From: a virus
DNA: 48,824 nucleotides
Direction: 5' to 3' (one strand)
IMG/VR virus record: IMGVR_UViG_3300018481_000030
Location: 1-48,824 of that record
Below are positions 2,390-7,840 of the stretch, in pieces (positions within the stretch are counted from its first letter, which is position 1; every line of letters starts with the position of its first letter). The translations under genes and the position numbers were made by a program. The notes beneath the pieces were generated by a model. The model did not search any database. It was not told the DNA's origin and saw only the letters and a list, made by a program, of their open reading frames with translations.

Positions 2390-2488
2390 TTGACGTCATC
2401 CATGGCATGGATTGACGTCGCTTTCTGGCACGCGTTTGGCATGAATTGACGTCGCGACCTTGCAAGCGATTCACGCGAATCTTGCAAG
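2390..2488. promoter_or_regulatory. Clustered TTGACGTC boxes and CTTGCAAG dyad
   Basis: The octamer TTGACGTC occurs at 2390-2397, 2412-2419 and 2446-2453; the first two flank an imperfect inverted repeat centred on CCATGGCATGG. At 2459-2488 two CTTGCAAG palindromes flank GATTC-ACGC-GAATC, giving a nested dyad. The layout suggests protein-binding sites, but no convincing -10 box follows any of the TTGACG motifs. Confidence 0.45.
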
Positions 2489-2570
2489 CCGGTGGGCGCG
2501 GATTGTCCGAATTGGGGGCAAGTGGAAAAGCTCTCTTGCGGCCATCGCTGGAGACCTCAAATACCCTCCG

Positions 2571-2589
2571 TACTCCGAGATCACTGGGG
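2571..2589 (+). promoter_or_regulatory. Operator-like element A (TACTCC-N6-ACTGGGG)
   Basis: TACTCC, six variable bases, then ACTGGGG. It is the left member of a direct series with 2610-2628 and 2674-2692. The preceding CCCTCCG is also shared with the next copy. Confidence 0.6.
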
Positions 2590-2609
2590 TACACCCCTCC
2601 AACCCTCCG

Positions 2610-2628
2610 TACTCCCCGGCAACTGGGG
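2610..2628 (+). promoter_or_regulatory. Operator-like element B
   Basis: TACTCC-CCGGCA-ACTGGGG. Read on the opposite strand, 18 of 19 bases over 2609-2627 match 4095-4113 upstream of the primase gene, which makes these two the closest pair in the family. Confidence 0.65.
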
Positions 2629-2673
2629 TTGAGCATCACAGAGTTTGTCAATGACCTCACCAATGAGTACAGC

Positions 2674-2692
2674 TACTCCCCCTCGACTGGAA
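2674..2692 (+). promoter_or_regulatory. Operator-like element C
   Basis: TACTCC-CCCTCG-ACTGGAA. The spacing is kept and five of the seven right-hand bases match the consensus. Confidence 0.5.
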
Positions 2693-2778
2693 TACTCGAC
2701 ACCATTGACAAAACAGCTAACAAGGAGTACCCACTAGGTAAAACCCCAGCTAAACACCCACAAAACACACTCTCTCTA

Positions 2779-2797
2779 TACTCTCTGTTCAGTGGGC
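2779..2797 (+). promoter_or_regulatory. Operator-like element D
   Basis: TACTCT-CTGTTC-AGTGGGC. Its right half lies in the left arm of the 19-bp inverted repeat, facing element E. Confidence 0.5.
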
Positions 2798-2940
2798 TGC
2801 CAGTCACCCCACCTCTACCCTCTTTCTGAATTTCGGCCTCCGACGTCGTCTTTTTCGACACCAATATTGCCCAAAACGCTCTGACCAGGGGTTTTGTCAT
2901 TTCCGTCTGGGTGTACGTAGTGGTGACTGGCAGCCCACTG
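2790..2940. repeat. 19-bp perfect inverted repeat with long spacer
   Basis: CAGTGGGCTGCCAGTCACC at 2790-2808 is repeated in reverse complement at 2922-2940. Homology continues outward into elements D and E, so both arms carry an operator-like site facing each other across about 110 bases. Confidence 0.7.
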
Positions 2941-2951
2941 AGCAAGGAGTA
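2933..2951 (-). promoter_or_regulatory. Operator-like element E (reverse)
   Basis: On the - strand this reads TACTCC-TTGCTC-AGTGGGC, sharing AGTGGGC with element D. Confidence 0.5.
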
Positions 2952-2977
2952 GCGAGAGACCCTCCTGGCCGTGGATG

Positions 2978-2996
2978 GCACAGTTCACACGGAGTA
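2978..2996 (-). promoter_or_regulatory. Operator-like element F (reverse)
   Basis: On the - strand this reads TACTCC-GTGTGA-ACTGTGC. Left half and spacing are exact; the right half keeps ACTG. Confidence 0.45.
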
Positions 2997-3245
2997 GCGA
3001 GTGAGCCCCAATTCGGGCCATTTGCAAGATTTCCACCCCGTGGCCGCCATGCACCGCTCGGGGACCGTGTTGGAGGAGGTCAACGACGGGCAACGTCGAA
3101 GCGGGCGTCTGCAACCAGAATTGGTGTACTCTGTGGTCGAATGACTGCACATTCGAGACGCAACAACGACTCCCATCCGGGAACGTGGCTGGGTCTCAGT
3201 GACGTCGTCGACCGACCACCACACTGGCAATTAGGAGCACCAATA

Positions 3246-3509
3246 ATGGTCAAACCACCCACTTCAACCCCTCTGCAAGGGTCCATCCAAGGCTTCCAAG
3301 CAAGCCCCGGAAGATGTCCTCACTGCGTCTCCGTCCTGGCCGAACTTGAGCGTTGTAAGCCCCTCACCGAGAGGCCGTCCGAATGGGGCGCGCGCCCCCG
3401 TTGGGGAGCCGGTCCAGGGGTCTCCGGACCGCTGTTCTCGGATTCCGTTGCTGGATGCGATTGTCAGTGCCACTGGCCGTGGCGCTTCCTCACCGGGATC
3501 AAGTCATGA
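3246..3509 (+). CDS. Small Cys-rich, probably zinc-binding protein
   Basis: The protein has 87 residues and unknown function. C24-x2-C27 (CPHC) and a C-terminal cluster C71, C73, C75, H76 could bind one zinc ion. The ATG at 3246 is chosen because AGGAG at 3233-3237 sits eight bases upstream; an in-frame ATG at 3141 would add 35 residues but has no ribosome site. Its TGA overlaps the ATG of the ribbon-helix-helix gene (ATGA at 3506-3509), so the two are probably translated together. That coupling, and the operator-like elements on both sides of the pair, suggests a regulatory role, which is inference. Confidence 0.6.
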   Translation: MVKPPTSTPLQGSIQGFQASPGRCPHCVSVLAELERCKPLTERPSEWGARPRWGAGPGVSGPLFSDSVAGCDCQCHWPWRFLTGIKS

Positions 3510-3955
3510 GCGGGTCCATCTGGCTGACGAATCCGCACTTCCCGAACCGGGCCGCGCCCGATGTACCAAACGTGGTGACCGGGAACGTCACACCGCTTCG
3601 TCCCGAGACGTCTCTGCCGGTGAAGAAGGTGCAGTTGTCGATCCGGCTCGACAGTTCGGCGCTTGAGAACCTGGATGAGCTTGAGGCCCGTCTGGAGAAT
3701 TATCGGCAGCGTCAGAAGGTGACGAAGATCCTGTGGAAGGCGAAGTTCGTCAGGCGCTTGAGCCTGGACGCCGCCACCCACGCCTACATCCGCGCCGAAG
3801 CGGCAACCAACGGGATGACCATCAACAGCTTCGTCACCAAGCTCCTGACCGACGCGCGTCTTGAGGTGTCGAACGAGCCCAAATCTTCGCCGCCGCCAGA
3901 CGACGACCCGGACGACGACTCAGACGAGTTGACAAACGTCTCTGACACTCAGTAG
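3506..3955 (+). CDS. Tandem ribbon-helix-helix DNA-binding protein
   Basis: The protein has 149 residues. Residues 42-80 fit one ribbon-helix-helix unit (strand VQLSIRLD, helix around 51-66, helix around 71-80). Residues 82-117 fit a second one (strand RRLSLD, helix 89-102, turn at MTINS, helix 109-117), which is the clearer match to the Arc/MetJ fold. An acidic tail (about 131-149) is rich in Asp. Such proteins are usually dimeric repressors; here two units may sit in one chain. The ATG overlaps the previous stop. It is the best candidate in this window for the factor that binds the TACTCC-N6-ACTGGGG elements. The promoter at 3929-3958 lies inside its last codons. Confidence 0.65.
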   Translation: MSGSIWLTNPHFPNRAAPDVPNVVTGNVTPLRPETSLPVKKVQLSIRLDSSALENLDELEARLENYRQRQKVTKILWKAKFVRRLSLDAATHAYIRAEAATNGMTINSFVTKLLTDARLEVSNEPKSSPPPDDDPDDDSDELTNVSDTQ

Positions 3956-3958
3956 AGT
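3929..3958 (+). promoter_or_regulatory. Promoter reading toward the replication genes
   Basis: TTGACA at 3929-3934 and TAGAGT at 3953-3958 are 18 bases apart. The promoter overlaps the end of the ribbon-helix-helix gene and is followed after about 70 bases by a terminator-type hairpin. Confidence 0.6.
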
Positions 3959-4027
3959 GGCGTCATCTCCTGTGCTTGGAGTCAAAAGGGCGGTGGGCTC
4001 GGTGTAGGGCCGGACCCACTGGAACGC

Positions 4028-4064
4028 GAACGGCCGGGAGGGCTCCACCCCCTCCCGGCCGTTC
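4028..4064 (+). terminator. Hairpin between two replication promoters
   Basis: A perfect 15-bp stem (4028-4042 with 4050-4064) encloses a seven-base loop and is followed by CGTCTTCC, not a clear T-run. It would stop or attenuate RNA from the promoter at 3929-3958 before the primase gene. Confidence 0.65.
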
Positions 4065-4093
4065 CGTCTTCCGCCACCTGTTCGACACGGAGT

Positions 4094-4128
4094 ACCCAGT
4101 TGACGGGGAGTACTGGACCGAGTAGGGT
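4094..4128 (+). promoter_or_regulatory. Primase promoter with operator-like element G
   Basis: TTGACG at 4100-4105 and TAGGGT at 4123-4128 are 17 bases apart. The reverse element G (TACTCC-CCGTCA-ACTGGGT on the - strand, 4094-4112) covers the -35 box. A protein on this element would block RNA polymerase, so this looks like a controlled early promoter for 4200-7840. A further GGAGTA lies at 4089-4094. Confidence 0.6.
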
Positions 4129-4199
4129 TCGGGTTCCCTGACGACACCGCCTCCCTGGCGGTCGAGCAAGCACACCGACGCACCACACAGGAGAAGAAC

Positions 4200-5057
4200 T
4201 TGACGGCTCAATCAGAGACCGCGCCCACGTCGCGCACTTCCCACCAGGAGATGGTGCGCGAAGGCGCTTCGCTACTCGGGCAGTTGTTCATCAGCCGCCG
4301 CGACGCCAAGGCGATCTACCGCCCCGACCACAAGAACGTCTGGCACTGGACGTCGGTCCCCGAGAAGTACACCATGGGTGACTTCGCGGAGCACCTGACC
4401 GGCCAGCATTGCCTCGGGACGTACCTGCTCGCCCCGGACAGCACGGTCAGCTTCCTGGCGTTCGATCTTGATCTTGCGAAGCACTCCAAGTACTGGAAGT
4501 GCTACGACATCGAGCAGATCCTCGCTCTCGAAGAACAGCAGTACGGGTTCGATCTGGACGTCGCGGAGGGCGATCTAGAGTCGTCGCTCCATGTCCCCAC
4601 CGCCGAACCTCACCGCTGGGCGCGCATCGTGCTCTTGGAGACAGTGCGCCTCATCGAGCGGGCGGTGAAGAAGCAGTGGGGGATGAACTCGCTGACCGTC
4701 ATCACGGGTGGCGGCGCACACGTCCTCGTTCCGTTCGCCGAGCCGCAACTCGCGGCCGACGCGCGCAACGCTGGCATCGGACTGTTGAAGGAGATCGGGG
4801 CGCGCAAGCGCAACGACATGTTCTTCGATTTTGGTGGCCTGAACGAGTTGACCATCGAGGTCTTCCCGAAGCAGGACACGTTGGATGGAAAGAGTCTGGG
4901 CAACTTGATCCGGCTGCCGTTCGGGTGGCATCACGAAGCGGGCATCCGTACTTATTCGATCGATCCAGAAGCCGCAACGACACCGCTGTGGGACTTCAAG
5001 AAGGTCTCCAGTCTGGGGGCACTGCGAGTACTGGCCCAGAGCCTTGGAAAGAAGTGA
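4200..5057 (+). CDS. Archaeo-eukaryotic-type primase-polymerase
   Basis: The protein has 285 residues and should synthesise primers or short DNA during phage replication. The three catalytic-site motifs of the AEP superfamily are visible in order: D89-x-D91 after a hydrophobic strand, a Gly-rich G170-G-G-A-H174 nucleotide-binding motif, and acidic E220 in IEVFPKQ, followed by NLIRLPFGWHH near 238-248. The EVFPKQ and NLIRLP blocks resemble AEP domains of TOTE conflict systems. The start is TTG, placed eight bases after a strong GGAG ribosome site. It is followed almost directly by the helicase gene, which lacks a catalytic primase domain of its own, so the two probably act together at the fork. 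Confidence 0.85.
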   Translation: MTAQSETAPTSRTSHQEMVREGASLLGQLFISRRDAKAIYRPDHKNVWHWTSVPEKYTMGDFAEHLTGQHCLGTYLLAPDSTVSFLAFDLDLAKHSKYWKCYDIEQILALEEQQYGFDLDVAEGDLESSLHVPTAEPHRWARIVLLETVRLIERAVKKQWGMNSLTVITGGGAHVLVPFAEPQLAADARNAGIGLLKEIGARKRNDMFFDFGGLNELTIEVFPKQDTLDGKSLGNLIRLPFGWHHEAGIRTYSIDPEAATTPLWDFKKVSSLGALRVLAQSLGKK

Positions 5058-5058
5058 A

Positions 5059-7248
5059 GTGGCCGATGCCCAAGAATTGCAAGAGGTCGAGCAATGGCTG
5101 ACCACCCTCTACGGGAACCAGGAGACACCGGACAAGGTGTCTCACCGGGGGAGAGTGATCGACCCCGACGGGGAGATCAACGCCTTCCAGCGACTCGGGC
5201 TCAAGAACATGGCCGCGACGCGACTAGAGGAATTGAAGGCTCAGGGTCCTACTGAAGCGAGCCACGGAGTCGCCCCGCTTCCAGCGGTCGCCCCCGAACT
5301 CGCCCACGACATCCCCGAACCGATCGAGGGCTTCGATGACCGGCCCGACGTGGTGGGGATGGTCAAGGCGGCATGCCGGATCATCACGGCGGTCGCCAAC
5401 TGGGGGAAGCCGCAGCCCAACCTGAAGATCGGCAACCGCACTGAGGGCATCCACGTCCGCTGCCCCTTCCCGAATCACCCCGACAACAACCCGTCGGCCT
5501 GGATCAACACCGCCAAGGACACATGGTTCTGCGGCGCCTGCCAGGAGGGCGGCGACCAGATCGTCTTCTACGCCGCCGCCAAGCACGGGATGACGCAGAG
5601 CGATCTGCGGGACTCCGAGACGTTCCGGTCGGTGATCCAGGAGATGGCCGCGGAACTGGGACTCGACACCGAGCCTCCGCAGCCAGTGCCAGTGGACCCG
5701 CCGGAACCGGAACCCGACGAGGATCCCGACGCTGTCCAGGTGGCGCCAGAACCAGAGATCCCGGCGGCGCCGGACAACGAGCCGCCGTCCGGCCCGCCGA
5801 GCCCCGCACTGGCTGCCATCGACCCTGACGATTTTGACCCACGAGACGAAGACCCCCTTGACTACGAGGGCGTGCTGCCGTCCTACGACTGGCGAGATCT
5901 GGGGCTTCGCCCTGAGACCTTCCTCGCCCAGTGGATGAAGCACAACCTTCAGGACATGTACACCGTTCCCCCGGAATACTTCATCATGTTGGGGTTCCAG
6001 GCTCTCGGACTGGCGTGCGGGCACCACCTCCAACCCGTCACCAACAGGGGGATCACCAACGGTGCCTTCATGATGTTGTTGATCGGCCCGACCGGCTGCG
6101 GGAAGTCACTAGCCAAGCAGCGGATGACCAAGATGTTCGAGTCCTCCGTTGGCTCCAGATGGGACCCAGCCGACGGGACTGGAATCAGGGTGTTCAACAC
6201 GCCTGGATCGGCCGAGGCATTCCTGCGGCTGATGCGTCACGATATCGAAGATCCGAGTGATCCTCTCAAGAAGATCGAGACTCCGGTGACCGCCCTCCTG
6301 GAGGAAGACGAGTTCGCTGTCCTGGCCTCCAAGAACAAGCGTCCGGGGAACGAGCACAACAAGCAGCGATTCATGAAGTTCGTGGACTTCGCCAAACAGG
6401 AGACGGGGCCGGAGATTGTCGATCGTGACTTCTCGATCTCCAACGGGTCTCATGTCGTCCACGACGCTTTCTTCAGTGCTGTCATGTTGACCCAGACGGA
6501 GACGATCCGCACGCAGTTCGAAGAGAAGGACATGGTGTCCGGCTTCATGAACCGGATCATTCCAGTGTTCGGTCAGAGCCCGGCGAAGGAGGACCCGACC
6601 ATCGACTGGAACAAGGGTGTGCCGGGTTACGCCAAGATCTGGGATGCGACCTGGCGATGGATCCGCGGCAATCCGGTGGGAACCCACGTGCCCTGGGAGC
6701 CGGACGTTGGTCTCTACTTGAAGAATCACGAATACTGGAGGCGTCTCGGCGATCTGGAACAGATGGAAGGGATGGCGCTTCTCTCCAGGATGAAGCACCA
6801 ATCATGTCGCCTGGCCTTCCTGCTGGCGGTCAACGAGGGCGCCCTGGTGGTCGAGCGTCGACACTTCGAGATCGTGCTCCGATTCATGCGGGACTACGTT
6901 GAGAAGTGCTTCGCTCGATTCCGACAGGCCGCCAAGGCTACCGAGTCGAAGGATTTGAAGACCAGGATCCTGGAGTATCTTCACAAGTTCTACGACAGGA
7001 CCGGCGAGTGGCCGTCGCGCTGGGAACTGGGAAGGAACCGGTTCTGGCGAGACGCAACCGACTGGGCGCGAATGTCCTCCCTCGACAACTTGTTCTCCGA
7101 CCATCAGGTGTCCGAACTGACTTTGAAAGCGGGTACCAAGACGTCCAAGATTCTTGTTGCAACAGACCAAGAGGGCTACTGGAGACAGTACGCTTCTCAC
7201 CACGGGAAGATCTTCCCAAAGGAATCGTTCTATGCCAGTGCTAGATAA
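5059..7248 (+). CDS. Helicase with DnaG-type zinc finger, no TOPRIM
   Basis: The protein has 729 residues. Residues about 130-185 form a CHC2 zinc finger (C135, H140, C158, C161, with PS and GGD at the usual places). Residues about 200-290 are a Pro/Glu/Asp-rich linker where a TOPRIM catalytic domain would normally sit. The ATPase follows: Walker A GPTGCGKS at 343-350 and an acidic EEDE (415-418) as probable Walker B, similar in style to DUF3987 replication helicases. Residues about 630-725 look like a winged helix. GTG at 5059 is preferred because GGAAAGAAG lies just upstream and the previous TGA ends at 5057; TTG at 5044 is an alternative start. The catalytic primase activity is likely supplied by the upstream protein. 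Confidence 0.8.
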   Translation: MADAQELQEVEQWLTTLYGNQETPDKVSHRGRVIDPDGEINAFQRLGLKNMAATRLEELKAQGPTEASHGVAPLPAVAPELAHDIPEPIEGFDDRPDVVGMVKAACRIITAVANWGKPQPNLKIGNRTEGIHVRCPFPNHPDNNPSAWINTAKDTWFCGACQEGGDQIVFYAAAKHGMTQSDLRDSETFRSVIQEMAAELGLDTEPPQPVPVDPPEPEPDEDPDAVQVAPEPEIPAAPDNEPPSGPPSPALAAIDPDDFDPRDEDPLDYEGVLPSYDWRDLGLRPETFLAQWMKHNLQDMYTVPPEYFIMLGFQALGLACGHHLQPVTNRGITNGAFMMLLIGPTGCGKSLAKQRMTKMFESSVGSRWDPADGTGIRVFNTPGSAEAFLRLMRHDIEDPSDPLKKIETPVTALLEEDEFAVLASKNKRPGNEHNKQRFMKFVDFAKQETGPEIVDRDFSISNGSHVVHDAFFSAVMLTQTETIRTQFEEKDMVSGFMNRIIPVFGQSPAKEDPTIDWNKGVPGYAKIWDATWRWIRGNPVGTHVPWEPDVGLYLKNHEYWRRLGDLEQMEGMALLSRMKHQSCRLAFLLAVNEGALVVERRHFEIVLRFMRDYVEKCFARFRQAAKATESKDLKTRILEYLHKFYDRTGEWPSRWELGRNRFWRDATDWARMSSLDNLFSDHQVSELTLKAGTKTSKILVATDQEGYWRQYASHHGKIFPKESFYASAR

Positions 7249-7840
7249 GAGCGTCACGAATGACGTCAGAAGGCTTCTCTGCGGGATCATCAATTACTTC
7301 GATCGATCTGGCGAGTGGCCGACCGGCGGGTCCGTGAACCAGATGTCCTCCTACAAGAAGATGACCAGCAACAAGGCGGAAGTGGTCAAGCACCTCTTGG
7401 ATCGGGGGTTCCTGGAGTTCGACTACGGCTCCACCAGCAACAACCGGACGTGTCGGTTCTACGTGGCGACCGACAAGGGTCGGGAGTTCGTGTCGCCGCC
7501 GGAACCGCTCCCTCACGTTCCGGGCGCGTACCCGACGCCATTCCCCGACGACGAGATCGAATCCATCGTCTACGGGTTCCACTACTCGTTCTTCCAGCGA
7601 CGCGGCAGATGGCCGAACGGCGAGGAACGGGCGTGGGCGTTTTCGAAGCCCAGGCACCGGACGTCACCCGAGCGTCGCCAGCGGGCGTATGAAGCACTCG
7701 TTGCCGACGGCACGTTCGTCCATGTGTACTTCTGGAACCGATCGGGGCAGTCCGACTCGTACATCTTGCCTGAATACTCGCCAGAGTACGCCGACAAGCA
7801 CGAGTGGCTCTTCTACGCACCCCTGGATGCCGATGCCTAG
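7232..7840 (+). CDS. Tandem winged-helix-like protein
   Basis: The protein has 202 residues. Two copies of a domain are visible, each with an aromatic-x-R-x-G-[ER]-W-P signature: YFDRSGEWP near residue 24 and FFQRRGRWP near residue 125. The C-terminal region of the upstream helicase has the same signature (FYDRTGEWP), so this gene probably arose by duplication of that domain. A DNA-binding role such as origin recognition or helicase loading is inferred. The ATG at 7232 follows AAAGGA by eight bases and lies inside the helicase end (overlap 7232-7248), so translation is coupled. Confidence 0.6.
   Translation: MPVLDKSVTNDVRRLLCGIINYFDRSGEWPTGGSVNQMSSYKKMTSNKAEVVKHLLDRGFLEFDYGSTSNNRTCRFYVATDKGREFVSPPEPLPHVPGAYPTPFPDDEIESIVYGFHYSFFQRRGRWPNGEERAWAFSKPRHRTSPERRQRAYEALVADGTFVHVYFWNRSGQSDSYILPEYSPEYADKHEWLFYAPLDADA

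Follow-up and report, generated by a model that had tools for sequence, protein, structure and literature searches.

Primases of the TOPRIM class and of the archaeo-eukaryotic primase (AEP) class share no ancestry, and it is an open question how a primase of one class comes to replace one of the other over evolution. Other primases bind the template through a second domain or protein: DnaG and PrimPol have a zinc domain for this, and many AEPs have a helical bundle, either fused or as a separate subunit (PMC7581432). Here, a pair of adjacent genes was analyzed in IMG/VR record IMGVR_UViG_3300018481_000030, a stretch of 48,824 bases (the window) of siphovirus type, with genes for terminase, Mu-like portal, major head protein, tape measure, and endolysin. 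The first gene encodes a stand-alone AEP catalytic domain, and the second encodes a helicase with a DnaG-type zinc domain and no TOPRIM. We favor, with a probability of roughly 0.6, a two-gene primosome in which the zinc domain borne by the helicase would aid or direct priming by the AEP in trans, after the loss of TOPRIM.

Several described systems share part of this design. For example, T7 gp4 likewise carries a DnaG-type zinc domain at the N terminus of a replicative helicase; however, the phage helicase lacks TOPRIM, is AAA+ rather than RecA, and leaves catalysis to a separate, unrelated protein. NrS-1- and ORF904-type fusions also combine an AEP-class domain with a DUF3987 ATPase, but in a single chain and with a helix-bundle domain (HBD) in place of the zinc domain, whereas the phage uses separate genes; no Pfam HBD match was obtained in the AEP or the helicase. 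The CCPol-MP-Cch2 operon of SCCmec is a split primase-helicase too, with an accessory template-binding part on another polypeptide (PMC7581432), but unlike the phage pair it has an A-family polymerase core and no zinc domain. The closest characterized enzyme, the CRISPR-associated Prim-Pol (CAPP) of Marinitoga, shares the AEP fold and motifs with the phage protein; its chain also includes TPR and C-terminal domains, and it adjoins cas1/cas2, whereas the phage AEP is a bare core. Database entries already label one gene of the pair a primase and the other a helicase, and the relation of the AEP to CAPP in Gordonia phages has been published (PMC8211822). Our search library, which lacks most subscription papers, yielded no paper on an AEP paired with a helicase that has the DnaG zinc domain but no TOPRIM.

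Domains of the AEP and the zinc-finger helicase

The AEP gene (4200 to 5057, plus strand) encodes 285 amino acids from TTG 4200, with AGGAG just 5' of this start and an alternative ATG at 4251. The protein matched Pfam AEP-TOTE PF22548 (E 1.3e-19; 71 bits against a cut-off of 27) and PHROG 5362 DNA primase (1.7e-31). Its model had a predicted local distance difference test (pLDDT) score of 95.4, and the best PDB match in Foldseek was the CAPP Prim-Pol 7p9j (E 9.7e-16; template modeling score of 0.76 on target length), followed by LigD polymerase domains and primase small subunits. The DxD, GxH, and hE motifs of the AEP superfamily all lie within this AEP fold. Motif I (D89-x-D91, in FDLDL; 4464 to 4472), motif II (GGGAH, G170 to H174; 4707 to 4721), and motif III (IEVFPKQD with E220; 4854 to 4877) are on the plus strand. 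Across 60 sequences, both aspartates of motif I were 98% conserved, and G170, G172, and H174 as well as E220, P223, K224, and Q225 were 100% conserved. Thus, the active site that the initial annotation had read from the letters (D89, D91, GGGAH, and E220) was confirmed by profiles, alignment, and fold model. Loss of these residues in relatives, which was to have spoken against that annotation, was not seen, as the catalytic residues were invariant in 53 relatives. The window AEP consists of the catalytic core only.

The family names, Pfam AEP-TOTE and the PADLOC PrimPol adaptation polymerase, would take the AEP out of replication and assign it to a TOTE or CRISPR adaptation system. We give this hardly any credence: in phages, the AEP adjoins a helicase and a terminase, and the CAPP authors call its Gordonia phage homologues viral replicative Prim-Pols (PMC8211822). 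In addition, the other window proteins scanned with PADLOC (the helicase apart, and not every open reading frame [ORF]) gave no match, cas-type genes included, on a contig that is incomplete.

The helicase gene (5059 to 7248, plus strand) encodes 729 amino acids from GTG 5059, in an ORF that opens at TTG 5044; counted from these GTG and TTG 4200 starts, the residue numbers given earlier for both proteins were right. The protein matched PHROG 5311 helicase (8e-50) over residues 132 to 667. Its AlphaFold2 model had a mean pLDDT of 87 and showed a zinc domain (residues ~98 to 199; 5350 to 5655), a disordered Pro/Glu-rich linker (residues 200 to 277; 5656 to 5889), a DUF3987/MCM-like AAA+ ATPase (residues 278 to 626; 5890 to 6936), and a C-terminal region of helices and two strands (residues 629 to 729; 6943 to 7245), all on the plus strand. 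The C-terminal region is probably a winged helix, judging from the model. DUF3987 has been predicted as a helicase (PMC5862659). The window protein itself gave no DUF3987 (PF13148) profile match at E 0.01, whereas 40 of its 45 relatives did. The best PDB matches of the ATPase in Foldseek were MCM AAA+ proteins (E 4.9e-8). It contains a Walker A motif, GPTGCGKS (6085-6108, plus strand), and a Walker B-like motif, LLEEDEF (6295-6315, plus strand), and K349, E418, R499, and R577 were invariant in 45 sequences.

The zinc ligands C135, H140, C158, and C161 are encoded at 5461-5541. The domain was modeled mostly at a pLDDT of 80 to 97, with strands at residues 131 to 133, 147 to 150, 155 to 158, and 163 to 166 and a helix at 167 to 176. 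The window protein exceeded the Zn_ribbon_DnaG (PF01807) threshold only barely (25.0 bits; cut-off 24.9), and the same region also matched PHROG primases and the PDB DNA primase 2au3 (E 0.014). Among the 45 relatives, 31 matched Zn_ribbon_DnaG at E 0.01. The usual spacing of the DnaG zinc site is C-x2-H; in the window helicase it is C-x4-H. Across 52 nonredundant helicases with a mean identity of 22% to the window protein, the four ligands (C, H, C, and C) were conserved at 96, 92, 94, and 98%, far above that mean, so the site is not due to chance. The CHC2 finger proposed at first therefore stood, on the profile match and the conservation of its ligands.

An MCM-type N-terminal zinc ribbon was considered instead, since the ATPase resembles MCM and MCM proteins also carry a zinc ribbon. 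It was rejected as scarcely tenable, because the sequence matches are to DnaG ribbons (Pfam, 2au3, and PHROG as above) and because the finger is connected to the ATPase in the model by the disordered linker alone, with no folded domain in this stretch. As a separate observation, the zinc region (5353-5664) also matched the PADLOC RTasDnaG-like model of DRT defence systems (E 9.7e-8).

No TOPRIM was found in the helicase. None of the 45 relatives matched a Toprim family, and residues 200 to 277 were nearly structureless in the model (pLDDT mostly about 40 to 57), with the ATPase beginning directly afterward; the length of this linker varied from 45 to 245 residues among relatives. The initial annotation had placed a Pro/Glu linker where TOPRIM should be and had named a TOPRIM fold in residues 190 to 300 as the finding that would overturn it; the linker was borne out, and the AlphaFold2 model contains no such fold. 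Compared with DnaG, the protein thus has the CHC2 zinc domain and lacks the TOPRIM catalytic core. It resembles T7 gp4-type proteins in carrying a zinc domain on the helicase chain but has neither TOPRIM nor a RecA/SF4 helicase. The analogy with T7 gp4 drawn at the outset accordingly holds for the position of the zinc domain and fails for the motor, which is DUF3987/MCM-like.

Conservation of the gene pair and absence of polymerases

Single sequences were too weak as queries for viral contigs: the window AEP recovered one relative and the window helicase none. Alignment queries were used instead. One alignment search yielded 80 loci; for the helicase, a 45-row alignment was too diverse as a search pattern, and a 10-row alignment succeeded. 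In all, 71 distinct AEP-helicase pairs were collected, and the two genes were on the same strand in every one of them (71/71). The genes touched, overlapped, or were separated by at most 17 bases in 37 pairs and lay within 500 bases in 55. Many pairs share descent, so the 71 do not represent independent events. When the search started from the helicase, the AEP was found upstream in 49 of 51 loci, and about a dozen of these contigs had been missed by the AEP search. The two loci without AEP were a second piece of an AEP-bearing contig and a record (L128) with a zinc-only protein. In the latter (2480-4239), a zinc protein of 214 amino acids lies beside a P-loop ATPase that differs in type and is encoded separately; with no AEP in the record, the zinc module can evidently stand alone.

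One contig in IMG/VR (L006) repeated the order of the window: an AEP of 60% identity, directly followed by the helicase (55%), small ORFs, terminase, and portal. In tblastn searches, 86 phage records of Gordonia, Rhodococcus, and Tsukamurella matched the window AEP; 14 matched the helicase. The same AEP lies upstream of a zinc-finger DUF3987-like helicase, on the same strand in the records examined, in Rhodococcus phage ReqiDocB7 (gp105 and gp102), Perlina, and the Gordonia phages Chelms, Katyusha, and GordDuk1. These proteins are 18 to 30% identical to those of the window, and at least one gene separates AEP and helicase, compared with none in the window. In ReqiDocB7, Perlina, GordDuk1, Katyusha, and Reynauld, both genes were nearby and in the same direction, and each helicase had a zinc finger, with longer spacing in GordDuk1 and Reynauld. 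The top full-length structural matches of the helicase were the Chelms DNA helicase and D4P7A8 (620 amino acids), which we take from its length to be ReqiDocB7 gp102.

The initial annotation had seen no DNA polymerase gene in the window. Since the window is incomplete (the endolysin ORF continues past its right end, and cultured relatives are ~75 to 81 kb), this absence alone has little meaning. The search covered sets of records that each included the window, with five complete cultured phages covered for every family. There was no match to DNA_pol_A in 7 plus 17 records, to DNA_pol_B in 23 records, or to Pol III alpha in 33 records; a DNA_pol_B_2 search was uninformative because no control matched. 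A TOPRIM gene elsewhere in the genome was likewise rejected for Toprim_2 and Toprim_4, neither of which occurred in the 23 genomes searched. The AEP was the sole primase catalytic domain detected in these phages. With no PolA, PolB, or Pol III alpha found in complete relatives either, DNA synthesis in these phages probably falls to the host polymerase or to the AEP itself. Other actinophages differ, as Pol III alpha has been noted together with a primase/polymerase and helicase in cluster CR phages (PMC13313380).

The lack of polymerases in the window and its relatives would also suit a split primase-polymerase-helicase of the ORF904 or NrS-1 type, in which most of the phage DNA, and not only its primers, would be synthesized by the AEP. 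The related CAPPs are indeed polymerases with strand displacement (PMC8211822, PMC10345425), but characterized AEPs have no proofreading and are thought to be mainly primases (PMC5862659). Moreover, neither protein gave a Pfam match to an HBD-like domain. Many phages without a polymerase use that of the host, which also counts against this explanation, and on balance we regard it as improbable.

Side observations were made on the pair in some contigs. One AEP-helicase pair (L087) occurred in a Thioalkalivibrio metagenome bin; unless this contig was misbinned, the phage group carrying the pair may not be confined to phages of actinobacteria. In three others (L001, 1019-2056; L002, 2107-3051; L052, 11005-12420), a protein family of unknown function with a common C-terminal motif like NPAYWAHxxEDKINGILQQA is encoded between AEP and helicase and is a possible third component in these phages.

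Role and origin of the zinc domain

For the proposed primosome, the following order of events is envisaged. In a host that is probably an actinobacterium, MCM-like AAA+ subunits of the helicase would form a ring and unwind the DNA. The DnaG-type zinc domain, on its flexible linker, would hold the single-stranded template, the first nucleotide, or both for the AEP. The stand-alone AEP would make the primer in trans, and elongation would then pass to the host polymerase or stay with the AEP. A more specific form, in which the pair is a hybrid primase kept across a broad group of phages, whose zinc domain recognizes the template or initiating nucleotide for the unrelated AEP core after TOPRIM was lost from a Zn-TOPRIM-DUF3987 ancestor and replaced, is tentative and falls somewhat short of even odds. 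The initial annotation had suggested such a joining of two primase classes; the invariant orientation of the pair and the lack of polymerases in relatives agree with it, and the zinc domain may act on the AEP as it supposed.

Several points weigh against the primosome. The CAPP Prim-Pol domain is an efficient primase even when its C-terminal domain is missing; the PrimPol core likewise primes without its zinc finger, which stimulates but is not essential (PMC10345425). By analogy with the CAPP core, the zinc domain may be auxiliary to priming rather than required for it. The link between AEP and helicase is one of gene association, their interaction is putative, and in some phages the two genes are 0.5 to 5 kb apart. 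AEP distances correlated less with those of the zinc domain (0.58) than with those of the ATPase (0.75), and thus gave no sign of special coevolution between AEP and zinc domain.

Some of these results also speak for another explanation, in which the zinc domain, inherited from a DnaG-like ancestor, does no more than bind DNA or support the structure of the helicase, and the AEP primes alone after recruitment to the fork through another helicase surface. The independence of the CAPP core and the absence of a special distance correlation fit this. So does one lineage (L053, 2106-4124; L054; L062) that keeps the gene pair with a degraded finger of three ligand-like residues and that is a natural test of the need for the finger. 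However, the mean pairwise divergence was 0.58 for the zinc domain, 0.61 for the AEP, 0.69 for the ATPase, and 0.78 for the linker. Within the helicase, the zinc domain was thus the least divergent part and the linker the most, and a zinc domain more conserved than the ATPase is unusual for a relic or a generic DNA-binding part. We therefore consider this explanation rather unlikely, though a serious competitor. Other cases of finger loss were rejected: that in L052 was only apparent and reflected a spacing variant, and in L027 (6011-8171) and L031 (4278-6177) the helicase ORF is split, with the finger on the upstream piece, by a frameshift, a sequencing error, or a real split.

The zinc domain could also serve the DnaG core of the host, with the AEP given a different task, for example gap filling or repriming. 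Subunits of DnaG-class primases are reported to be able to regulate primer synthesis in trans (Corn et al., 2005), but this explanation leaves the AEP as invariant neighbor unaccounted for and seems very improbable.

The linker of the phage helicase occupies the position of TOPRIM in Zn-TOPRIM-DUF3987 proteins. Four proteins (L143, L137, L138, and L149) share the ATPase family and keep TOPRIM ahead of it (a weak Pfam match except in L149), unlike the phage helicase; in L137, L138, and L143 a zinc finger is N-terminal. Genomes were drawn from the phylum to which a Dietzia bin belongs, and 20 of these 296 encoded DUF3987. The 19 DUF3987 proteins scanned included several AEP-HBD-DUF3987 forms (NrS-1/ORF904-type fusions L139-L142 and L152-L154 among the proteins compared), one TOPRIM-DUF3987, and the three with zinc finger and weak TOPRIM. 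A structure search of viral models also returned proteins whose names point to AEP-DUF3987 and TOPRIM-DUF3987 arrangements. This ATPase, fused elsewhere to AEP-HBD or to TOPRIM (in some cases together with a zinc finger), thus works with modules of both primase classes. In a domain tree, the phage zinc-finger helicases formed one clade (96/90), and the nearest sampled neighbor was the TOPRIM-DUF3987 protein L149 (100/100). The segment of L004 had been cut at the wrong GKS, and its placement was disregarded. Given the TOPRIM and AEP forms elsewhere and this neighbor, loss of TOPRIM with the AEP taking over catalysis in trans would be the likeliest history; it is plausible rather than proved, and the long branch of L149 and the small tree sample count against it.

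If the hybrid primase is real, it would be a case in which catalysis passed to one primase class and the recognition domain of the other was retained. CAPP-like Prim-Pols would then also have a known accessory domain, and phage-borne DUF3987 ATPases a role. The conserved two-gene unit is carried by cultivable phages of Gordonia and Rhodococcus; because it joins a zinc domain from one class to a catalytic core from the other, the interchangeability of recognition and catalytic modules is directly testable in such phages.

Neighboring features of the window

The ORF after the helicase (7232 to 7840, plus strand) matched no Pfam family. In a BLASTP comparison of the two sequences alone, it resembled the helicase C terminus (E 3e-4; 23% identity over 75 columns), and it is a possible partial duplicate of that region. 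ORFs likewise follow the helicase in L006 (4488-5542); these and the window ORF (7232-7840) are perhaps duplicated winged-helix genes.

The 9-mer GTGCTCGAC and its reverse complement occurred in 40 copies within positions 1-2400 of the window and in none in the other 46 kb. The same 9-mer was clustered near the contig end in L010 (99-515) and L011 (23-168), 3 to 5 kb upstream of the AEP. The array may consist of iterons of an origin, or it may be a repeat at which assembly breaks.

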